A DNA stretch of 28,612 nt from a virus: IMG/VR virus record IMGVR_UViG_3300006334_000053, positions 1-28,612 of that record; one strand, given 5' to 3'. Numbering within the stretch: the first letter of the stretch is position 1; each line of letters starts with the position of its first letter. A program made the position numbers and the translations under genes. Shown here piece after piece: positions 17,034-26,763 of the stretch. The notes beneath the pieces are model-generated. The model was not told where the DNA came from. It was given only the letters and a program-made list of their open reading frames with translations, and searched no databases.

Positions 17034-17214
17034 ACTCTTTCATATCACTTATCCAATTTCGCATTCTTTGTGCCTGCTTTTCATGGAAGTTTTTGTTTTT
17101 TAAATCTTTCATAGATTGTTCAATATGAAAATCGTATAGTCTAGTCGCAAATGCAATTGCATCTTGATATGGCATACGAACTGAATTTGAAAAAGACCTC
17201 TCTACTTTTTTCAT
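16993..17214 (-). CDS. Small basic protein, last gene of the curli/cyclase operon
   Basis: A 73-residue, strongly charged, helical protein (KDLKNKNFHEKQAQRMRNWI) with no membrane segment. Its ATG overlaps the cyclase stop by 4 nt (ATGA), so it is almost certainly translated with it. I recognise no family. Being paired with the cyclase, it might be cytoplasmic and act on the same pathway, but that is a guess from position. Confidence 0.65.
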   Translation of the reverse strand: MKKVERSFSNSVRMPYQDAIAFATRLYDFHIEQSMKDLKNKNFHEKQAQRMRNWISDMKEFIVSNESCRGREA

Positions 17215-19076
17215 GGTGAATATATTTCTATTTTTTCTTCTTTACCTTTTACTTTAATTGTATCTAATTTTTTAAATAAAAAATCTTTACGACTATATCC
17301 ATATTGACGAATAGAGTTTACAGTATCTAAACTGATAAGTATTCTATTGTTTTTATATTTGCCTCTGGCCGCTAGTGCTTCCAAACGAGCGGCGAGATTA
17401 ACTGCATCTCCGATGACTGAATAATCAAATCGGGAAACAGAACCCATGTTGCCAACGATGCAGTCACCAGTATTAATACCAATGCCAACATTGATGCTAG
17501 GAAGATTTTTTCTTTTAAATTCATCTTGTATTATCTTTAGTTCTTGTTCTATTTCTACTGCAGAAATACATGCCATTTCTGCATGATACGTATTGTCTAA
17601 TGGTGCATTCCAAAATGCCATTATACAATCACCCATGTATTTATCAATCGTGCCTCCATTACGTAGTATAATATTAGACGTTCTATCTAAAAAGTTATTA
17701 ACTAATTCCACTAAACCTTCGGGGTCATCATTGTTTTTGTAATGTTCTGATATTGGTGTAAACCCAACTATGTCCATAAAAAAGAATGTCATGTTCTTTT
17801 TCTCACCACCAAGTTTTAGTAGACTTGGGTCTTCTGCAAGTTTATCTACCATGTCTGGCGATAGATATGTTTTGAACTGACCTTTTATCATTTCTTTAAG
17901 TTTGTATGTCACGTAGTACTTGTTAAATGATGCATGTCCAAACACTAGAAGCGATGCCAATGACGTATACACTACATCAATAAGTAATAGAGCAGTATAC
18001 CAATAATATAGTCCTGTTGCGATTATACCACCAATCATTGCAAGAGATAATATGCCACTTAGATACGTAGGCAATCTATATACCATAAGTAGTATCAATA
18101 ACATACTCATTGTTAAAACAAGTATCTCTAATTGTTCAAGAAAGAAATGTCTTTGTATTTGTACACCACTTACAACAGTTTGAATTAAGTTTGCTTGAAC
18201 ATCATGTGGGTACATCGCACCCATTGGTGTTGGCACTGGATTTACTAATCCACCAGCAGATAAACCAATGATATACATTTGTCCATCTGGCATTGGTTCA
18301 CCAAAAGAGATACGTTTAAACTTATTCCAATATGCAATTTGTATGTTAGAGTTAGGTGTGGTAGACATTTTATCTAATTTACCCATTCTTACCCATTCAA
18401 CACCTGCTTCTTTTACTTTCATCGCATAATTAGGTTGACGATTCCAAACACGTAAAGTTTCTAGTGCGAGAGAAGGATAGATATGACTATTTGCAATTAC
18501 CATTAATGGTGCTTCACGAACTATACCATCAATACTTGGTGCGGCACTTACAACACCGACACCAACAGGATTTAATTCTTTTATAGGTGTAGAAATACCT
18601 TTATACGTATACAACCAGTCACTAGGGTCACCTTTACCTAGTTTACCAAAACCAAGAAAAGGTTTATCGCCTTTATTTGATACGTTTGTAGGAATAGAAG
18701 ATAATATAACTTCTCTTTTTGACATCGCATATGCAAGGTCATTGTCACCATCGAATCTATCGGGTTCAGTAAATCCCATGTTCATTACATACAAAGACAA
18801 TGCCCCATTTGAAGTTAAAACTTTTGCATAGACATCACGTGGAAATGGAAATTGTCCAAACTTCTCTAAAGACTTTTCATCAATATCAACTAGAACAATA
18901 CCAGAGTCTACAGGTGTTTGTAGATATTGTAGTGAATCAAAATAGTTTAAACGAAACTGTTCTACTAATTTAGGGTCAGCAACACGAACACCAACTAATA
19001 ATAGTATTGTTATGAGAATAACTTTCCAATTATATATCGCTTTGTTTACCATACATTTTAAAATATTTTTTACCAC
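17211..19076 (-). CDS. CHASE2-domain class III adenylate cyclase
   Basis: A 621-residue membrane enzyme making cAMP. A membrane helix (about 17-31) leads into a periplasmic CHASE2 sensor (about 40-305: VLVDIDEKSL, FPFPRDVYAKVL, SIDGIVREAPL). Three further helices follow (about 314-333, 337-358, 361-380), then a cytoplasmic cyclase domain (about 428-600). Catalytic residues are complete: metal Asp in FFMDIVGFT (D435) and YMGDCIM (D483), adenine-selecting K479 and D551, and N560/R564 in VNLAARLE. The Lys/Asp pair indicates ATP rather than GTP. Start 19076 overlaps the oxygenase gene by 47 nt; ATG 19052 is an alternative. In bacteria such cyclases often neighbour FecR-domain genes, as here. Confidence 0.93.
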   Translation of the reverse strand: MVKNILKCMVNKAIYNWKVILITILLLVGVRVADPKLVEQFRLNYFDSLQYLQTPVDSGIVLVDIDEKSLEKFGQFPFPRDVYAKVLTSNGALSLYVMNMGFTEPDRFDGDNDLAYAMSKREVILSSIPTNVSNKGDKPFLGFGKLGKGDPSDWLYTYKGISTPIKELNPVGVGVVSAAPSIDGIVREAPLMVIANSHIYPSLALETLRVWNRQPNYAMKVKEAGVEWVRMGKLDKMSTTPNSNIQIAYWNKFKRISFGEPMPDGQMYIIGLSAGGLVNPVPTPMGAMYPHDVQANLIQTVVSGVQIQRHFFLEQLEILVLTMSMLLILLMVYRLPTYLSGILSLAMIGGIIATGLYYWYTALLLIDVVYTSLASLLVFGHASFNKYYVTYKLKEMIKGQFKTYLSPDMVDKLAEDPSLLKLGGEKKNMTFFFMDIVGFTPISEHYKNNDDPEGLVELVNNFLDRTSNIILRNGGTIDKYMGDCIMAFWNAPLDNTYHAEMACISAVEIEQELKIIQDEFKRKNLPSINVGIGINTGDCIVGNMGSVSRFDYSVIGDAVNLAARLEALAARGKYKNNRILISLDTVNSIRQYGYSRKDFLFKKLDTIKVKGKEEKIEIYSP

Positions 19077-19569
19077 TATATAAATCTTCTTTCTTTCTAC
19101 TATAGTGTATCATTGCTTGATAACATGAACGACCTTTAAATTCTTTTCTATAATGTGGTACAGTACCCTTGTAAACAATTGCATCGCCTGGCATTAATAA
19201 GTAAGGTTTATCGTCAAAGTAAATATTCCATTTAGTTCCACCTAAATGTATAGTTGCACTCCATTCTAAAAATAAAGTGTCTGTATGTTCTGGCATTGAA
19301 TCACCTTTTAAATATTTACGAGCAAGACTTCGTACAGGATATAATTGTCTTTTTGTAATTTGTTGCATATGGTTAAGTTTTTTTGCCATAATCATTTCTG
19401 TCCATGCAGGTGCAAAAAATTGGTATTTATAATCAAATACTTTACTTGAAAGGGGAGTAAATGAAGCATGATTACCAACTCTATCTTGTATTTGACATTC
19501 ATGCTCTAACATTAACATACAAAACCTCGCAAGGTCTGAACTCAGAAAATTTTTAACTACTTCAATCAT
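19030..19569 (-). CDS. 2OG-Fe(II) oxygenase embedded in the curli operon
   Basis: A 179-residue protein of the prolyl-hydroxylase-like fold. It has HxD in MPEHTDTLF (H95, D97), a PGDAIVYKGTVPHYR strand with distal H139, and R147 in GRSCYQAMIHY, so iron and 2-oxoglutarate ligands look intact. There is no signal peptide, so it is cytoplasmic. Its start overlaps the second curlin gene's stop by one base (TAATG), and its end overlaps the cyclase. A role in hydroxylating an operon product before export is possible but only inferred from position. Confidence 0.75.
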   Translation of the reverse strand: MIEVVKNFLSSDLARFCMLMLEHECQIQDRVGNHASFTPLSSKVFDYKYQFFAPAWTEMIMAKKLNHMQQITKRQLYPVRSLARKYLKGDSMPEHTDTLFLEWSATIHLGGTKWNIYFDDKPYLLMPGDAIVYKGTVPHYRKEFKGRSCYQAMIHYSRKKEDLYSGKKYFKMYGKQSDI

Positions 19570-20414
19570 TATTGTTGTGCAACAGAAATGCTACAACCAC
19601 CCATAGTTTGGCAGTTTTGTGATAGTGAATAAGACTGAGCAGAATTGCCTTGTTGACTTAAATTTAATGTTGTTGGACTAGAACCAGTTAAAGATATATT
19701 TGCAGTATGTGTTGCATAACCACTTTGATATCCTGTAACATTGTTTCCATCATTGTATGTGTATAAATTTACAGTTTTTACACCATCAGTATTTTGTCTC
19801 CAGAATACATTATTATTATCAGAGTAAAGATAAAATGTTGCTTGATGTTCACTATAGATACCTGCAGATGAATTTCTTTGACTACCTGCAAGATTATTAT
19901 TATCTCCATGAATATCAATAGTTACATCATGACCACCACCTTCACTTCCGTCCCATGCAAAAGTTGTATCATTTAAAGAACTTAAAATATATCCCTGACC
20001 CCAACGAACATTATTATCGTCACCATAAATGTGAAGACCTATATGAGATTCTTTACAAAGTGAACCACGACCACATATTTGTGCAAAGTCTAAATTATTA
20101 AATGTACCGTCTATATCACCACTACTTAAACTACCCCAATGCCCATAACTTACTTTATTATTATGTCCATGCTGGATTATTTTTACTTCGTTGCCTTGGT
20201 GTTGCATTGAAAAGTCTACTTTGTTGTCTTTACCTTCTTGTTCGATAAACAACTTTGTACCTTCACCACTTTGAGTAATATATATTTCATTATCAGCATA
20301 TGCATATTCACAACTTGCAATACCAATCGAAAATAAAATCCACATTGTTATAATAGTTTTAAGTCCTTGTGGCGATATTTCTTCTTTGATACGTTGTATG
20401 TAATATTTAATCAT
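19569..20414 (-). CDS. Second curlin-repeat amyloid-type protein (CsgA/CsgB-like)
   Basis: A 281-residue secreted protein. The mature N-terminus, DNEIYITQSGEG, is almost the same as that of the other curlin-like protein (DNEIYIEQVGEG), then repeats follow such as IYGDDNNVRWGQ, IHGDNNNLAGSQ and LYSDNNNVFWRQ, spaced about 35-40 residues. This strand-turn pattern with Asn and Gln ladders fits a curlin-type beta-solenoid. The signal is ambiguous: AYA before D41 fits signal peptidase I, but IASC at residues 32-35 also reads as a lipobox. If lipidated, it could be a membrane-anchored nucleator like CsgB. Several extra Cys residues may form disulfides. Confidence 0.8.
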   Translation of the reverse strand: MIKYYIQRIKEEISPQGLKTIITMWILFSIGIASCEYAYADNEIYITQSGEGTKLFIEQEGKDNKVDFSMQHQGNEVKIIQHGHNNKVSYGHWGSLSSGDIDGTFNNLDFAQICGRGSLCKESHIGLHIYGDDNNVRWGQGYILSSLNDTTFAWDGSEGGGHDVTIDIHGDNNNLAGSQRNSSAGIYSEHQATFYLYSDNNNVFWRQNTDGVKTVNLYTYNDGNNVTGYQSGYATHTANISLTGSSPTTLNLSQQGNSAQSYSLSQNCQTMGGCSISVAQQ

Positions 20415-21562
20415 TCTTGTGTTATTATGATTCTTGTATCTGAACCATCTCCTAAAGTTATCTCGCTTGGTTTTTGGTTAGTATATGTTTCAATAACTGC
20501 ATTAGTATAAATTGCATGAGTTATTCTAATAATACCTTCTACTTCTCTAGTCATAACAATTGTTTCTTCTTCTTTATTAACAAACGTACTATACTGACTA
20601 TCATCATCAAACCCTACTTGAGTGCCTTCAATGTTAACATTACCTATATCTGCGACTTCTCTATCAATCTCATTTATTCTGTCAAGTTCTGCAGTAATGT
20701 CTAATAAGTCTTGAAGAAACTCAACATCTAGTAAATCAATATCTAGTTCAGTATATTCTAATTCTCCTTTATCTTCTAAAGCATCTTCTTCTAAGGCATC
20801 ATATGCCAAAAAATCGACATCTAAAATACCTTGAGCATCATCTTCTTTACTTTCTCTTTCTGCTTCTACTTCTTTTATTTCTTTTGGTGGATTGACAATA
20901 AACATATTATTAATTGAATCAGGAGTAATACCTTCAAGAATAACTGTTCTTTGTGGCATAACATCATATGATTGTAACATCATGGATTGATATGCCTCAT
21001 TCAATGTAATTGTCCCACCAGCATTTGTAATAATTATTTCACCAGATGAATTTCCATTTTCATCAGGCAATAATACAACTAACGTTCTGCCAAGTTCATC
21101 AACAGTGGTCGTGAAATCTGTACCACGAATACCTATCTGAGCAGTAGGTGTAGAGATATCGATATTTGCTTTATCAATTCTTGCACCTGTGCCAGAAGTA
21201 AATCTAGCAGTACCCATTGCCATTCGCATTGTCATCTTAGATAACGATGGGTCTGGGTCATAATATACTTCGTCAATGTAAATTCTTGTATGTTCAGTTA
21301 ATGCTAATTCTTCTTCATCTTTGAATTCAATTAACATTCTACCATTACCAGTAACGGCAGTATCATTCATTTCTACATCAGGTAAACTCGCATCTGAAAC
21401 AATTAGTTCTTCACCAGATTGTCTTTCAAGTGCGGCACTACCAGTGTGTTCACGAATATCACCAATAGAGTCTGCATAAACAGACCCTATTAGTAAAAGA
21501 TTACTCGCCAGTATCTTGTTGAATAATCGTAATTTCTGAACCGTCTGTAACAAAACTTGCAT
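20411..21562 (-). CDS. FecR-domain periplasmic protein with acidic C-terminal region
   Basis: A 383-residue exported protein. A signal peptide ends near SVYA (residue 30). A FecR-like domain follows (about 60-180: TAVTGNGRMLIEFKDEEEL, then MAMGTARFTSG and IGIRGTDFTTTV, the usual FecR core). Next is a long acidic, Leu/Asp-rich stretch (about 230-300) and a beta-like tail ending DGSDTRIIITQE. FecR domains act in envelope sensing, and FecR-domain genes often adjoin CHASE2 cyclases in bacteria, as in this operon. It begins 62 nt inside the curlin gene upstream, a long overlap; no better in-frame start is visible. Confidence 0.85.
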   Translation of the reverse strand: MQVLLQTVQKLRLFNKILASNLLLIGSVYADSIGDIREHTGSAALERQSGEELIVSDASLPDVEMNDTAVTGNGRMLIEFKDEEELALTEHTRIYIDEVYYDPDPSLSKMTMRMAMGTARFTSGTGARIDKANIDISTPTAQIGIRGTDFTTTVDELGRTLVVLLPDENGNSSGEIIITNAGGTITLNEAYQSMMLQSYDVMPQRTVILEGITPDSINNMFIVNPPKEIKEVEAERESKEDDAQGILDVDFLAYDALEEDALEDKGELEYTELDIDLLDVEFLQDLLDITAELDRINEIDREVADIGNVNIEGTQVGFDDDSQYSTFVNKEEETIVMTREVEGIIRITHAIYTNAVIETYTNQKPSEITLGDGSDTRIIITQE

Positions 21563-22418
21563 CTAATATCGCCTCTGTACTATTTAAACCTGTACCTGTT
21601 CTTTGACCAACAAATACATAGTTTTTATCACCTGTTAAATCTACAGATATTTTATTATCACTTCCATCTTCTTGAGTTGTTAATATCCAGTTGTTTGAAC
21701 CAGTTATATCCCAATCCCAGATAGCATTCGAAGAGTTTATAAAAGCACCAATAGTGTTTGAAGCGCCACTACCATCAACTAGTAAGTCAATGTTGGCACC
21801 ATCTGCACTACCTTCTGTAATATTCCAGGCATCCCAATATGCGGCATTTGACCCATAATTACTTGTAGCATTACCACCATAAGTTCCATAACCAGTGATA
21901 TTACTACCAGTGAATGTATGAGCAGAGTAAGTTCTAAAACCAGCACTATTATTAAAAAATGCACCATCACCTAAATTATAAGGTGTGTTATAGGTTTCAG
22001 ATTTATTACCCAGTCTAAACAATGTTTGGTTGTAACTGCCTTGAATATCTACATTCATATCAATGGCATCTGCACTATAGTTACTACTAGTATTACCAGA
22101 TACAGTACCAATCAATTGATTGATTCTATTATTTGAACCTACTAGATTGTAATCTATGTTTGACCCATCTGAATTGATATCACCAAATAACAAGTTATTA
22201 CTACCATTAAATAACCAGTATGCATTACTGTTACCTATTTGTAGTTTCATATCGGTCGCATTAGCACCAGTGTTAGTATTTTGTCCAATCAAGTTTCCAT
22301 TACCTGTTTGTTCAATAATAATTTCTACACCTTCTCCAACTTGCTCGATATATATCTCATTATCTGCAAATGCAAATGCACTTACTGTTAATAATAAAGC
22401 GAGAATTAAAGTTCTCAT
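21501..22418 (-). CDS. csgA-like: Curlin-repeat amyloid-type protein (CsgA-like)
   Basis: A 305-residue secreted protein with a clear signal peptide (cleavage after AFA, residue 18). The mature start DNEIYIEQVGEG with IIIEQTGNGNLIGQ is curlin-like. Repeats follow of the form strand, Gly-Ser-Asn-Asn, strand (NGSNNLLFGD, VGSNNRINQL, TGSNNWILTT), about 22-30 residues apart, rich in Asn, Gly, Ser and Thr with few charges. It is longer than E. coli CsgA (151 aa). It starts with ATGA overlapping the CsgG stop, and the ribosome site AAGGAG lies within csgG. It is the most likely structural amyloid exported by the CsgG pore. Confidence 0.85.
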   Translation of the reverse strand: MRTLILALLLTVSAFAFADNEIYIEQVGEGVEIIIEQTGNGNLIGQNTNTGANATDMKLQIGNSNAYWLFNGSNNLLFGDINSDGSNIDYNLVGSNNRINQLIGTVSGNTSSNYSADAIDMNVDIQGSYNQTLFRLGNKSETYNTPYNLGDGAFFNNSAGFRTYSAHTFTGSNITGYGTYGGNATSNYGSNAAYWDAWNITEGSADGANIDLLVDGSGASNTIGAFINSSNAIWDWDITGSNNWILTTQEDGSDNKISVDLTGDKNYVFVGQRTGTGLNSTEAILDASFVTDGSEITIIQQDTGE

Positions 22419-23287
22419 TCTTTCTCCTTAATTAATGAGTGTTTATCGTTAACTCCATCTGATAGATGTGGGTGACGATGACCACTCTTTATTTGCCAAT
22501 AACCCCTATCGTGGCCTTGGTAAATAAGTTCTAATACTGCAACTTCAATAGCGGAGCGAACTGCAAAAGTCACACTCTCGTTAAATCCATTACCGTCTTC
22601 AAATTCCAATAACTTTGTGTCCATATCAAAGAATCGGAATAAATCATAACCACCACCGACAGACAAAATAGTTTTTTTCGCCTGAACATTCATTAAAATT
22701 TCACCTGTTAGTGTTGAGGTTGCCCTTAGACTAACAATTACTGAATCTCTTCTATATGATGTATTGTGTCCGACACCTAAGTATCTTGCTCCACGACCAC
22801 CACTTTCGATGTTAGTGTCATATCCAACAACACCACCATCAATTAAAATTCCTGCAAATACTAAAGAACCTAGTGCTTTGTCTTCATTAAACTCTTCTCT
22901 AGAACTTCTTATTATTTGTCTTTCTCTTATGAGAGCATCTATATTAGTTCTTTCAACTACTCTAAACCACTCTCCATTACCTGCAGTTTTAAGTGCATCA
23001 ATAACAAGTAAATCTGCACCTTGTGTTACCGCGGTAGAAAAATCTGAAAATGTATCTCTACTTTTTCTTTGCCCTGTTTTATCTGTAAATCCATAAACTG
23101 CAACTACTACAGGTTTGTCATTATCTGGACCCGGTACATTTTTTAATTCATATGTAGATGGCAACCTTTCAACAGTTGCACTTTCTCTACATGCTAGTTG
23201 GTCATCATCGCAATCTATACGAGAATAAGAAGGTATACTAGCACAACTTGATAGAACTAATAGTCCTACCAATAAAAATATTTTCAT
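22415..23287 (-). CDS. csgG: CsgG-like outer-membrane curli secretion lipoprotein
   Basis: A 290-residue lipoprotein with lipobox LSSC (Cys15). It aligns along its length with E. coli CsgG: FTDKTGQRKS, DFSTAVTQGADLLVIDAL, RTNIDALIRERQIIR, GYDTNIESGGRGARYLGVG, TGEILMNVQAKKTIL, FRFFDMDTKLLEFE and a final GHDRGYW. CsgG forms a nonameric outer-membrane pore that exports curlin subunits. In the constriction loop the E. coli residues Y51 and N55 appear to be Asp here while F56 is kept, though a one-residue insertion makes the Y51 position uncertain. Its start overlaps the csgF stop (TAATG). Confidence 0.95.
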   Translation of the reverse strand: MKIFLLVGLLVLSSCASIPSYSRIDCDDDQLACRESATVERLPSTYELKNVPGPDNDKPVVVAVYGFTDKTGQRKSRDTFSDFSTAVTQGADLLVIDALKTAGNGEWFRVVERTNIDALIRERQIIRSSREEFNEDKALGSLVFAGILIDGGVVGYDTNIESGGRGARYLGVGHNTSYRRDSVIVSLRATSTLTGEILMNVQAKKTILSVGGGYDLFRFFDMDTKLLEFEDGNGFNESVTFAVRSAIEVAVLELIYQGHDRGYWQIKSGHRHPHLSDGVNDKHSLIKEKE

Positions 23288-23754
23288 TAAAATGCTCCAC
23301 TACCTACTGGTACATCTAACGTTGTTATTGTTCCGTCATCACCTGTTATAGTGATTCTAATTACATCAATACCATCTTCACCACAACCAGTGCATAAATC
23401 ATATGCAACTGTATTACCAAGCATATCAAAGAAACCTGATATCTCACCTTCATTTATTCCATCACCAAACATTTGGTCAACTAATTGTTTTGATATTTGA
23501 GCATAAATTCTTGATTCTAAGTTTCTAAGAAATTTAGCATGGGTTGTACTTTCTGATTCACGTTCTGCTTTTGCAATTGCAGATTCAACATCTTCTTGAA
23601 TTTTGTCTCTACGAGACTTTTGTTGGTTTTCTATCGTCAAGTAATGTGAACTAGTCCCGATACCACTAAATGATGGCGATTTAAACTTATGGACTATTTG
23701 GTCAGCAAATACATTACTTACGAGTAGACTTGCGACTAGTACTAATATTTTCAT
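23287..23754 (-). CDS. csgF: CsgF-like curli assembly factor
   Basis: A 155-residue exported protein with a signal peptide (cleavage after VFA). The mature N-terminus VHKFKSPSFSGIG resembles CsgF, whose N-terminal NPxFGG segment plugs into the CsgG pore. Further on, FLRNLESRIYAQISKQLVDQM and the C-terminal strands ending in Phe also fit the family (E. coli CsgF, 138 aa). CsgF couples the CsgG pore to nucleation of fibres at the cell surface. It overlaps the preceding membrane-protein gene by 41 nt and is followed at once by csgG. Confidence 0.9.
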   Translation of the reverse strand: MKILVLVASLLVSNVFADQIVHKFKSPSFSGIGTSSHYLTIENQQKSRRDKIQEDVESAIAKAERESESTTHAKFLRNLESRIYAQISKQLVDQMFGDGINEGEISGFFDMLGNTVAYDLCTGCGEDGIDVIRITITGDDGTITTLDVPVGSGAF

Positions 23755-24019
23755 CTTTCTTTCCTTGTTTTTTTAATTCTTCTTGTTTTCGATATTCGAT
23801 AACAGTATTTACTTTTTGTTGTAATCGTATCAAGTCATTGTCAAGCATTCTAATCTGGTCTAATAATTTAATGAGAGTCTTATGTGAAGCACTAATTTTT
23901 GGTTTTAGTTCTTTTGTCACATACTTCCAAACATACCAGATAAAATATCCCATACCAATTGCCATTAGAACTGGATAACCCACCTCATCAATAATCAAAA
24001 TGATTTGGTCGATTTTCAC
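23714..24019 (-). CDS. Small membrane/coiled-coil protein B of the curli operon
   Basis: A 101-residue protein with DEVGYPVLMAIGMGYFIWYV forming an N-terminal membrane helix, then a coiled coil (about 40-75) and a Lys-rich tail. It resembles the gene before it in layout and in the Gly-Tyr/Ile-Pro start of the helix, so the two are probably a tandem duplication. The start is GTG sharing a base with the upstream TAG, with AGGAG a few bases before. Such YvrJ/BhlA-like proteins can be holin-like, but a scaffold role in curli export is equally possible. Confidence 0.7.
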   Translation of the reverse strand: MKIDQIILIIDEVGYPVLMAIGMGYFIWYVWKYVTKELKPKISASHKTLIKLLDQIRMLDNDLIRLQQKVNTVIEYRKQEELKKQGKKDENISTSRKSTRK

Positions 24020-24315
24020 TAGTCTCTCCTAGAGTCTATCTTTCCGTCTTCAACAAAGTTTTCGTTTCTTGCAACCCTATCAATATCAGGTCTCAAGTCT
24101 AAAGATTCACTTACTAGTAAATCAATCTTTATCATATCGTTATTCATTTGTCGAACTCTTGACTCTAAACCATTCATAATATTAGTAAGTCCCGTGACAG
24201 AACCACCGACACTATCTAAGATATATTTTAAAGTCAGAAAGATAAAGAACCCCATGATGATTGCACTACCAATCGGGATACCCACTTCCATTAATAATTT
24301 CATTATATTCGTCAT
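24019..24315 (-). CDS. Small membrane/coiled-coil protein A, first gene of the curli operon
   Basis: A 98-residue protein with MEVGIPIGSAIIMGFFIFLT as the membrane segment, then a predicted coiled coil (LTNIMNGLESRVRQMNNDMI) and a charged tail. It is a likely paralogue of the next gene. The TATAAATA box ends only 7 nt before this ATG, so the message would start at about the ATG; the in-frame ATG at 24303 is an alternative that leaves a 14-nt leader. No clear ribosome site is present for either. Confidence 0.65.
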   Translation of the reverse strand: MTNIMKLLMEVGIPIGSAIIMGFFIFLTLKYILDSVGGSVTGLTNIMNGLESRVRQMNNDMIKIDLLVSESLDLRPDIDRVARNENFVEDGKIDSRRD

Positions 24316-24322
24316 ACACGTC

Positions 24323-24330
24323 TATTTATA
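24323..24330 (-). promoter_or_regulatory. T4-type late promoter of the curli/cyclase operon
   Basis: Read on the reverse strand, 24330 to 24323 is TATAAATA, the exact T4 late promoter box recognised by the phage sigma factor gp55 with clamp-borne coactivation. By T4 spacing, transcription would start near 24317, just before the first operon gene. It lies in the intergenic gap between the divergent genes, the only such intergenic match in the window. I see no sigma70 promoter for this operon nearby. Confidence 0.65.
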
Positions 24331-24371
24331 TGAAAACTGACTTATAACAAGCATATATAATGAAACAGTGG

Positions 24372-24400
24372 TTGACATTTATTGTTTTACCATGTATAAT
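24372..24400 (+). promoter_or_regulatory. Sigma70-like promoter of the outer-membrane protein gene
   Basis: Perfect TTGACA at 24372-24377, a 17-bp spacer and perfect TATAAT at 24395-24400. Transcription would start near 24407, leaving a leader of about 21 nt with GGAG ahead of the ATG. It diverges from the late promoter of the curli operon. Confidence 0.7.
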
Positions 24401-24427
24401 TTTGTTACTATAAATTTGGAGTAATAT

Positions 24428-25045
24428 ATGAAAAGATTGTTGATTTTAATAGCATTGCTATCTGTACCAGTATTTTCTGCAGAAAACTGGGATAGAGAAC
24501 AATTAAATTTAAAACTACAAACTAAAGATAGTTTTGGTAATAATGTATCTTGGAGATACAGACATTACTTTGGAGATACAGATAAAACACATCACCAATT
24601 GGGTTACAAACTCGATAACTGGGATTTTTCATATCAGTACATTGAAAAGAAAGGTAGGATTGAACACCGACCTAGAATATCAGTAAAACTTTATCAACAA
24701 GATAATGGTTTCTACTTTAGACCTAGAGTAGAGTACCGTGATATCGAAGGTAAAAAAAGTGATACTTATTACTTTAGAGTCTTAACTACTCTTGGATATA
24801 AGGGGAACTTTAATTGTAATTCAAACTTAGTTTGTTTTGCACCACAAGTTCATTTTTCACCTAGATTCGCATTCGCAAAAGACGGTGTAGATGACGGAGA
24901 ATTTGAAGATATTCAAACTGATATCATGTTAAATATTAAGTTTGGTAAAAAGTTTACCATAAGGCCTGGGGTTAGATACATAGTAGATGATGACTACAAT
25001 ACTGACAAACTCTATGCAACCTTACAGTTTAGTGTCAAATTCTAA
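24428..25045 (+). CDS. Predicted outer-membrane beta-barrel protein
   Basis: A 205-residue exported protein. The signal peptide MKRLLILIALLSVPVFSA (cleavage near residue 18) is followed by alternating amphipathic strands rich in Tyr, Arg and Asp (WRYRHYFGD, WDFSYQYIEK, FYFRPRVEYRD, FTIRPGVRYIVDDD). The sequence ends YATLQFSVKF, with the terminal Phe typical of barrels folded by the BAM complex. It may change the host surface, for example against superinfection, or assist curli export, but neither is shown. It has its own sigma70-like promoter and overlaps the next gene by 59 nt. Confidence 0.75.
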   Translation: MKRLLILIALLSVPVFSAENWDREQLNLKLQTKDSFGNNVSWRYRHYFGDTDKTHHQLGYKLDNWDFSYQYIEKKGRIEHRPRISVKLYQQDNGFYFRPRVEYRDIEGKKSDTYYFRVLTTLGYKGNFNCNSNLVCFAPQVHFSPRFAFAKDGVDDGEFEDIQTDIMLNIKFGKKFTIRPGVRYIVDDDYNTDKLYATLQFSVKF

Positions 25046-25496
25046 GTATCAAGTATTTGAAAACTTTCTTGATGACCCAGATGAAGTCTTAGAGTTTTCT
25101 AAGAGTTCTAATTATTATACTGCAAAACAATATGCAGAATATAATAAAAGTGAATCTATTGGTAAATGGCCAGGACTTCGAACTAAGAATCTTATGTTCG
25201 AACTTCCTGAGGTCGTCAATAAAATACAAAACATGTTTGATGTAAAAGTTGGTTGGATTACTTTTTACAAACATTTACTAGAACAAAACATATCTGCACC
25301 CATGCCACATATCGATAAAGCATGGGACTTTTCAGGTGTCATTTATCTAGAAGGTAATGGTGGCACTTGGATAGATGGTGACGAAGTCCCATTCAAATAC
25401 AATCGTGCAGTTTGTTTCAATGCAAACGTACCACATCACCCACTCCACGGCAATACAGATAGAACTGTAATTACATTCTTTTCTTGGTTTAAATAA
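24987..25496 (+). CDS. 2OG-Fe(II) oxygenase-like protein (DUF6445-like)
   Basis: A 169-residue protein with FENFLDDPDEVLEF and the WPGLRT segment that I associate with DUF6445, then MPHIDKAWDFSGVIYL (H108, D110) and VPHHPLHGNTDRTVITFF (distal His 150/151 and R159). The HxD...H...R set fits an active 2OG oxygenase. Substrate is unknown. The ATG at 24987 lies inside the previous gene; internal starts at 25014 (ATG) or 25032 (GTG) would shorten the overlap and keep all the conserved region. Confidence 0.7.
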   Translation: MMTTILTNSMQPYSLVSNSKYQVFENFLDDPDEVLEFSKSSNYYTAKQYAEYNKSESIGKWPGLRTKNLMFELPEVVNKIQNMFDVKVGWITFYKHLLEQNISAPMPHIDKAWDFSGVIYLEGNGGTWIDGDEVPFKYNRAVCFNANVPHHPLHGNTDRTVITFFSWFK

Positions 25497-25600: not shown

Positions 25601-26050
25601 ATGCAAAGTAATCAATTTATTAAAAAAGTAAAAGAAGACCTTTACAGGTCTAATTCTATAAATTATGAAGATGGTAAGTATACTTTCCATAGTGATTACG
25701 AACAGAATGTAAAAGAAGTTGAAATCACCGATGAAAAATTAGCAGAAGAATTAGGTGAGTCTTTACCTTGGGTCAGAGGTTATGTTGACTTTAGAAAAAA
25801 TGACTTTAAGAAAGGTATAACAATAAAATTTTATACTCGTAAATTTTATACTAGAGAAGGCACTAGAGACGATGTTTTGTTTGTCTTTGTTCCTTACGAA
25901 GACTTTATTGAAAAACGAGTAAAAGTTTGGTTAGATGGTTACTGTACAAATTACTGTCGTGACGGTTATTTTTCTGACCCATTGTGTGAGAATTTTAAAT
26001 ATTGGAATTTTAACTTTCAATCAGAGGTAGAAAAATTTCAATTAATATGA
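25601..26050 (+). CDS. Hypothetical protein
   Basis: A 149-residue soluble protein with no family I recognise. It has charged, Tyr- and Phe-rich composition and ends with a short Cys pair region (DGYCTNYCRDGYFSDPLC). The peptide KFYTR occurs twice in tandem, from a 15-nt duplication at 25826-25855. AGAGGT precedes the ATG. It has its own promoter, is followed by another promoter, and seems to be a single-gene unit. Confidence 0.75.
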   Translation: MQSNQFIKKVKEDLYRSNSINYEDGKYTFHSDYEQNVKEVEITDEKLAEELGESLPWVRGYVDFRKNDFKKGITIKFYTRKFYTREGTRDDVLFVFVPYEDFIEKRVKVWLDGYCTNYCRDGYFSDPLCENFKYWNFNFQSEVEKFQLI

Positions 26051-26059
26051 AAATAAGAG

Positions 26060-26088
26060 TTGACAATTATTGTTTGACTTGTTATAAT
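26060..26088 (+). promoter_or_regulatory. Sigma70-like promoter upstream of the gene at 26120
   Basis: Perfect TTGACA at 26060-26065, a 17-bp spacer and perfect TATAAT at 26083-26088. It is a sister of the promoter at 25542 in spacer and leader. Transcription would start near 26095. Confidence 0.7.
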
Positions 26089-26119
26089 AACAACATAAAT
26101 TAATAAACAGAGAGGTAAA

Positions 26120-26380
26120 ATGTTAAGTAAAACATTAATAAAAGAACTGTCAAAGATTCAGACACCTGAACAATTGGCAGAAGTCTACAATTTCGGTAAA
26201 GATATTTTAGACGCCCTTGCGAAAGCAAGTTTCAAAGAAGGTGACGGCGTGTTCGTTGTTCAAAAAACTAAAAAAACTTTTGGTACAATCATTGAGATTA
26301 AACAAAAGAAAGCAGTTGTTCAAATGAGAGGTAGACATTACAGAGTGCCTCTTTCAATGTTAGAGGTAGCAGACATATGA
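26120..26380 (+). CDS. Small KOW/SH3-like protein
   Basis: An 86-residue protein. After a helical N-terminus (about 1-38), FKEGDGVFVVQKTKKTFGTI, then KKAVVQMRGRHYRVPLSMLEV, shows the pattern of a small SH3-like or KOW barrel that in other proteins binds RNA or ribosomal partners. Function is unknown. It has AGAGGT before the ATG and overlaps the next gene by 4 nt (ATGA), so the two are co-translated. Confidence 0.75.
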   Translation: MLSKTLIKELSKIQTPEQLAEVYNFGKDILDALAKASFKEGDGVFVVQKTKKTFGTIIEIKQKKAVVQMRGRHYRVPLSMLEVADI

Positions 26381-26763
26381 TTTATCTATCAGAAAAAATT
26401 CTTGCAGAAAACTGCGAGTACGAAGTTGTTGAAAGTTTAGGTACTAGTACTAGTTTACAAAGTTATGTGACTACTACTTACGATAAATTAGAGAATCTAT
26501 TCGGTACACCTTCTTATTCAAGTGGTGACCCATATGATAAAGTAAATACAGAATGGTGTATTTATGGTAAAGTCTATTTCACAGATGAATATGGTGACAA
26601 AGATTACGAAGTTATTCAGGCGACAGTTTACAATTGGAAAACTGGTGGTACGCCTACAGAAGAATACGAGTGGCACGTAGGTGGCACATGTTATGAAGCG
26701 GTTGAATTCATTGAGGAAATTCTCAATGGTCAAGTTCAACCAGATTACAACGAGAACGACTAA
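26377..26763 (+). CDS. Hypothetical protein
   Basis: A 128-residue acidic, Tyr- and Thr-rich protein. YDKLENLFGTPSYSSGDPYDK and a later YEWHVGGTCYEAVEF are notable, but I assign no family. It looks beta-rich with a C-terminal helix. The start overlaps the previous stop (ATGA), and it is followed by a strong AGGAGG site for the DUF932 gene, so it is in the middle of a three-gene unit. Confidence 0.75.
   Translation: MIYLSEKILAENCEYEVVESLGTSTSLQSYVTTTYDKLENLFGTPSYSSGDPYDKVNTEWCIYGKVYFTDEYGDKDYEVIQATVYNWKTGGTPTEEYEWHVGGTCYEAVEFIEEILNGQVQPDYNEND

Follow-up and report, generated by a model that had tools for sequence, protein, structure and literature searches.

Several roles have been suggested for the curli genes of phages. 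In the available portions of the papers concerned, sibling capture (PMC7029224) and a lysis or pinholin-like role (PMC9004378) have been proposed, and for a fuller curli module with FecR and a cyclase superinfection defence is one option named (PMC9599517). A divergent barrel gene is not mentioned in those portions of the three papers. The words 'barrel', 'porin' and 'DUF2490' are absent from the main text of PMC9599517, the available part of PMC7029224 has 'barrel' once and neither 'porin' nor 'DUF2490', and that of PMC9004378 has 'barrel' 12 times, in the portions available for CsgG, and lacks 'porin'. In Pelagibacter phage HTVC008M and Methylophilales phage Melnitz the operon runs in the order CsgF-CsgG-curlin-FecR-curlin-cyclase, and both phages have the operon but not the barrel gene that is described below.

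Phages can also encode outer-membrane proteins, as the Lom protein of lambda illustrates. Among bacterial outer-membrane barrels, the KdgM/NanC porins (PF06178; 4fqe, 4pr7, 2wjq) are 12-stranded and have a basic lumen that admits anions, while OmpG and CymA are 14-stranded. In the available part of PMC4827864, DUF2490 (PF10677) appears under TC 1.B.81 among putative porin families and has no established function. In the open-licence literature we found no paper on a phage-encoded porin, on a phage outer-membrane protein with superinfection exclusion, on a pelagiphage outer-membrane protein with superinfection, on phage PA-2/NmpC or on phage C48C1.

Gene organization of the locus

The window, that is, the whole stretch of DNA analysed here, is a virus record of 28,612 bases from a marine T4-like phage, with T4-like replication genes and a G+C content of 32.7%. 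The curli operon that lies in it beside the barrel gene is already published, and it is the barrel gene that is new. The features of the locus are as follows.

24428-25045, + strand: predicted outer-membrane beta-barrel gene, ORF of 205 aa with an ATG start
24418-24421, + strand: ribosome-binding site GGAG, read from the sequence, six bases 5' of the barrel ATG
24372-24400, + strand: early-type (sigma70) promoter TTGACA-17-TATAAT, 12/12 matches
24323-24330, - strand: late promoter word of the T4 type, TATAAATA, preceding the curli operon
25032-25496, + strand: orf169, probable GTG start at 25032, 14-nt overlap with the barrel stop
24019-24315, - strand: TM98, first gene of the operon, phrog_18771 match (E 6e-25)
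23714-24019, - strand: TM101, second gene, phrog_18771 match (E 1.5e-27)
23287-23754, - strand: CsgF, Pfam CsgF 39.6 bits (cut-off 25.8)
22415-23287, - strand: CsgG, Pfam CsgG 156.9 bits (cut-off 20.8)
21501-22418, - strand: curlin-repeat-like protein A, Curlin_rpt 13.3 bits, under the cut-off of 20.7
20411-21562, - strand: FecR-domain protein, 37.3 bits (cut-off 24)
19569-20414, - strand: curlin-repeat-like protein B, Curlin_rpt 16.2 bits, under the cut-off
19030-19569, - strand: 2OG-oxygenase-like gene (insert), PHROG label 'ferrochelatase'
17211-19076, - strand: CHASE2-adenylate/guanylate cyclase, Pfam matches above cut-offs

CsgG and CsgF pass the Pfam cut-offs and lie in the known gene order, which identifies a phage curli (type VIII) module. 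The order from CsgF to the cyclase is that of HTVC008M and Melnitz, and curlin-repeat-like protein A occupies the same position as in those phages. Their operons are without the 2OG-like insert that the window has, and nothing matching this insert was found in the nine related contigs introduced below either. The barrel-bearing group differs further from HTVC008M and Melnitz in that the operon is reversed beside the barrel and that the cyclase is missing in six of the nine related contigs, being found in L015, L177 and L234 only. TM98 and TM101 are two small membrane proteins, the former with one N-terminal membrane segment (by eye), and since both match phrog_18771 they look like tandem paralogues. 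On the other side, orf169 lies 3' of the barrel in 9/9 related contigs, truncated in L013; it has a weak profile match to cupin and an HxD...H...R pattern, which we take to be the 2OG-Fe(II) oxygenase motif.

Prediction of the outer-membrane barrel

The original prediction was that this gene codes for an outer-membrane barrel of about 187 mature residues with a signal peptide and a terminal Phe, and the sequence features were confirmed. The N-terminus, MKRLLILIALLSVPVFSAENWD, has a basic n-region, a hydrophobic core and a cleavage site with small residues, so that the signal peptide takes up about residues 1-17 or 1-18 and leaves a mature chain of about 187-188 aa (cleavage placed by eye). The aligned relatives have the same signal-peptide plan, and by eye the aligned sequences carry a Sec-type signal without a lipobox. 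The last strand, LYATLQFSVKF, alternates and appears, again by eye, to be a C-terminal beta-signal. The terminal Phe is present in nine of the ten barrel records and is replaced by Ile in L007.

When the mature chain was modelled with AlphaFold2 on an 8-row alignment, one row being 63% identical, the best model was all-beta with a pLDDT of 80, a pTM of 0.63 and 11 strands assigned; mean pLDDT in the remaining four models was 79, 77, 62 and 52. A first run with the full precursor and 8 rows that were 85-94% identical to the window had given a pLDDT of 42. The strand count of the model is odd, although it has to be even in a bacterial barrel whose two termini lie in the periplasm. At its N-terminus residues 1-5 have a pLDDT below 50, and residues 1-7 may form a twelfth strand. 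The 50 PDB matches listed by VIA-align are, by title, all membrane beta-barrel proteins, one of them (9n2d_B) being known by title alone as a BAM-complex chain. KdgM (4fqe; Z 13.9, 154 aligned, rmsd 3.6) shared the top place with OmpG (Z 13.9), and CymA (Z 13.8) and NanC (Z 12.8) came next. With Foldseek there was one match with an E value below 0.001, the EspP barrel. The alternation of polar and apolar residues in the predicted strands was not reached in any of 20,000 within-strand shuffles, the strands and their faces being taken from one predicted model. The gaps that fall between strands are not independent support because the model saw the alignment gaps. By prediction, then, the protein has the signal peptide, the beta-signal and the strand alternation of Gram-negative outer-membrane barrels, no soluble fold was predicted, and the gene product is very probably an outer-membrane beta-barrel.

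Comparison with known families

The barrel had no NCBIfam match, no PHROG match below E 0.017, no Pfam match above cut-off and, in a PDB sequence search, nothing below E 0.07. The DUF2490 model, whose family resembles the barrel in signal peptide and size, matched residues 20-121 of the window barrel below threshold (E 1.7e-4, 21.8 bits, cut-off 29.8). L007 and L001 scored 20.8 and 19.2 bits, also under 29.8, and L177, L003 and L005 had no match; at E up to 1 the model matched four of eight relatives, and the divergent type B allele of L177 was unmatched even at E up to 10. OMP_b-brl matched under its cut-off in the window (E 0.018) and in L177 (E 0.0078). Since two of the three KdgM-family barrels scanned gave similar sub-threshold cross-matches to other barrel families, such matches say 'barrel' and not 'family'. 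Profile comparison by hhalign gave 22.2 against DUF2490 (maximum of five shuffles 18.1) and 24.1 against KdgM/NanC (maximum of five column shuffles 22.0), and scores slightly above those of shuffles are not proof of kinship with either family.

The KdgM/NanC porins are the closest in structure, with the top match, a similar size and a basic inward face in common with the predicted barrel, but the top place is shared with OmpG and there is no sequence-family match. Pfam KdgM (gathering score 22 bits) did not match eight members at E up to 1 or five members at E up to 10, and the KdgM family model had no match in four records. A KdgM-like sequence motif in the barrel was considered and rejected, membership being unsupported by the DNA pattern, by the KdgM model and by the profile comparison. 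Phage-encoded outer-membrane proteins in BFVD, such as E1A206 of Aeromonas phage phiAS5, are like the barrel secreted and of a barrel-type fold, but the best BFVD match had an E value of only 1.6e-3. We describe the barrel as, by prediction, a new orphan family of phage outer-membrane barrels.

Promoters in the control region

A distance of 112 nt separates the start codon of the barrel gene from the first operon ATG (24315) on the opposite strand. The sigma70-like promoter originally proposed for the barrel gene is indeed there, and it is a perfect match to TTGACA-17-TATAAT. Across the whole window, sigma70-type sites with at most one mismatch number 11 against 0.74 expected in shuffles. The early-type promoter of the barrel is present in 7 of the 10 barrel-bearing records and is missing in L004, L005 and L006. 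On the operon side, TATAAATA by itself is no more frequent in the window than expected (4 occurrences against 5.55), but 62 of the 117 distinct stretches upstream of TM98 contain it, as against 153 of 20,000 random 75-mers drawn from the collected loci, and in 26 of the 62 it begins 13 bases before the inferred TM98 start. Judged by this placement, the curli operon has a T4-type late promoter. Since the barrel has an early-type and TM98 a late-type promoter, the proposal of an early barrel and a late curli phase is supported at the promoter level, except in the subgroup of L004, L005 and L006.

Distribution of the barrel gene

The barrel was found in the window and in nine IMG/VR contigs, each barrel-directed scan recovering 3-9 of the same nine, and in 10/10 records it is divergent from this curli operon. 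A barrel HMM detected nothing more at E up to 10 when applied to the open frames of the collected loci (169 of 170, all but L008, which is the window's own copy). Among 102 distinct TM98 versions, which at a maximum of 80 loci per scan are the best-scoring ones and not a random sample and do not include the window and L177 alleles, 5 have the barrel and 97 do not; 88 of these 97 have at least 1.5 kb on that side. The ten barrel records are closely related and represent few independent events, and because they all share one gene order we count them as one insertion event.

No match was found in phage records and no relative in cellular genome contigs, and the plasmid search gave one Streptomyces match with an E value of 8. 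In 397 SAR11-order genomes there was no convincing relative: four weak fragments were obtained (E 8e-4 to 5e-3), three with internal stops and the fourth covering 44 positions of a 473-aa frame. No DUF2490 match was obtained in 297 SAR11-order genomes at E 0.001. Two kinds of candidate were discarded. A Pseudomonadota match (E 2.5e-4, 398 genomes) rests on the signal peptide and a following stretch that does not resemble barrel strands, and the pattern matches in L176 and L236 are unrelated proteins. Of the named phage records, that of phage C48C1 gave the best match to gp41 and orf318; this phage is outside the seven CsgG matches, and the two stretches of it that were examined had no barrel or curli match.

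Apparent allele exchange and selection

Comparison of the window with L177 showed that DNA identity is 0.65-0.86 across about 23.6-25.1 kb and 0.98 on both sides. Within this region dS is 1.40 for TM101, 2.16 for TM98 and 1.25 for the barrel, against 0.05-0.39 for most genes compared (CsgG 0.21, CsgF 0.18, orf169 0.13). The diverged block with these three genes is about 1.4 kb long, and for this one pair the simplest reading is that TM101, TM98, the control region and the barrel were exchanged as a unit. The barrel allele of L234 is that of L177. The window/L177 dN/dS values are 0.22 for the barrel, 0.04 for TM98 and 0.06 for TM101, so that the barrel is still under purifying selection, and in the 13 pairs listed the barrel values range from 0.10 to 0.25.

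The predicted basic inner face

In the predicted strands Arg and Lys make up 21 of the 64 inward residues and none of the 64 outward ones, on a face scale that itself counts charge. When the faces were set from uncharged residues only, 18 Arg/Lys were inward and 3 outward (Fisher p 5e-4). By a cruder, model-free yardstick the inward net charge per residue was +0.23, +0.25 and +0.18 in the three barrel alleles tried (of the eight aligned). All three exceed a set of 12 proteins of the KdgM/NanC family and DUF2490, which includes two near-duplicates and ranges from -0.04 to +0.15 with NanC highest. Fourteen of the 21 inward basic residues are identical in all eight aligned rows. The identity between the two allele types is only marginally higher for inward residues (0.62) than for outward residues (0.59) and loops (0.60).

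Possible functions of the barrel

Because Arg and Lys line the predicted inner face, an anion channel is our best mechanistic guess. In this explanation host RNA polymerase would transcribe the barrel gene from its own early-type promoter, Sec would export the product and, as the C-terminal beta-signal suggests, the host BAM machinery would assemble it, so that a barrel of about 188 residues would sit in the outer membrane of the host. There it might act as a small channel of the KdgM/NanC kind that admits anions such as phosphate, nucleotides or acidic sugars during infection; that the channel is open, that it prefers anions and that the phage benefits are all inferred from the model and the sequence. 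Taken as a whole, the explanation that the barrel is an early phage protein acting as a small anion-admitting outer-membrane channel is tentative and falls somewhat short of an even chance, and the anion-channel function taken by itself is conceivable on the predicted structure, though we would not count on it. The curli operon would be separately controlled and share the intergenic region with the barrel, and the two need not work together. If the barrel is an early phage channel, a lytic phage would change what the outer membrane of its host admits, beyond what that membrane displays.

A different role, superinfection exclusion, was part of the original prediction. The early barrel would occupy or alter the cell surface, mask a receptor and so block the adsorption of competing phages. 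An early-type promoter is what such a gene would have, and the apparent allele swap and the narrow distribution fit an accessory competition gene. There is also precedent, since phage proteins that inactivate receptors, Cor among them, are established (PMC11436027, available part) and superinfection defence was proposed for the published curli operon (PMC9599517, available part). No specific support for the claim was found beyond such precedent. Loops that vary faster than the rest of the barrel, as for a receptor mask, were not found in the comparison of allele types, and with substitutions not concentrated in loops an arms race over exposed loops is not favoured. The low dN/dS in the 13 pairs listed likewise speaks against it, and so, if the host belongs there, does the lack of a convincing family member in the 397 SAR11-order genomes for the barrel to mimic or replace. 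We consider this role rather unlikely.

It was also proposed that the barrel is paired with curli export in rebuilding the host surface. As a partner in envelope remodelling the barrel would aid CsgG/CsgF export, the anchoring of curli, or TM98 and TM101. What remains of this pairing is the constant neighbourhood, with all ten barrels adjoining this operon, and the one apparent co-exchange, in which the TM101-TM98-barrel block differs much more strongly between the window and L177 than the genes on either side of it. Several observations speak against the pairing: 97 of the 102 distinct TM98 versions are without it, as are HTVC008M and Melnitz, the barrel has its own strand and an early-type promoter against the late-type promoter of the operon, and ten barrels in one gene order amount to one insertion event. 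A curli partner is, in our judgement, unlikely. A two-step programme, in which an early arginine-lined pore would feed synthesis with anions in the oligotrophic sea and a late curli export pore would follow under a shared divergent control region, is more doubtful still.

An enzymatic or lipid-binding barrel, comparable to LpxR, PagP or OMPLA and not a channel, would agree with the second place of LpxR in Foldseek (E 1.4e-3) and with C130 and C136, which are invariant in 10/10 barrel records, but LpxR is just 38th by VIA-align (Z 11.0), and we regard this role as improbable. That the product is a soluble secreted beta protein or the ORF a matter of chance, which the lack of any family model at cut-off and of a PHROG match below E 0.017 would allow, is highly improbable in view of the protein-level conservation with dN/dS well below 1, the signal peptide and beta-signal, and structural matches to barrels only.

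To return to the preferred reading of an early anion-admitting channel, the barrel is a small testable protein, and its control region has clear early-type and late-type promoters. The gene also marks pelagimyophage-like genomes that are useful for asking what the published phage curli operon is for.

Further observations on the locus

The word ATATATA[AC]T lies 5' of the barrel gene at 24353-24361 and is kept in 10/10 records, including L004, L005 and L006; it may be another promoter element. The identity of the window and L177 also dips at 25.4-26.0 and 26.3-26.9 kb, and an insert lies at about 19.0-19.6 kb. Between these two records orf149 is 75% and orf128 32% identical (25601-26763, + strand), as against 99% for orf318, and this divergence suggests that another variable region lies close to the barrel.

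HTVC008M and Melnitz likewise have TM98 and TM101 with the operon, and an Rz-like LysB match of TM101, though very weak (E 0.016), bears on the published lysis hypothesis. In at least L096, L018, L019, L020, L029, L144 and L152, a T4-type lysozyme-like frame, recognized by eye from a QLRE-L-IDEG motif near its start, shares the strand of the curli operon and lies 5' of it. This position again suggests a link between the operon and lysis.
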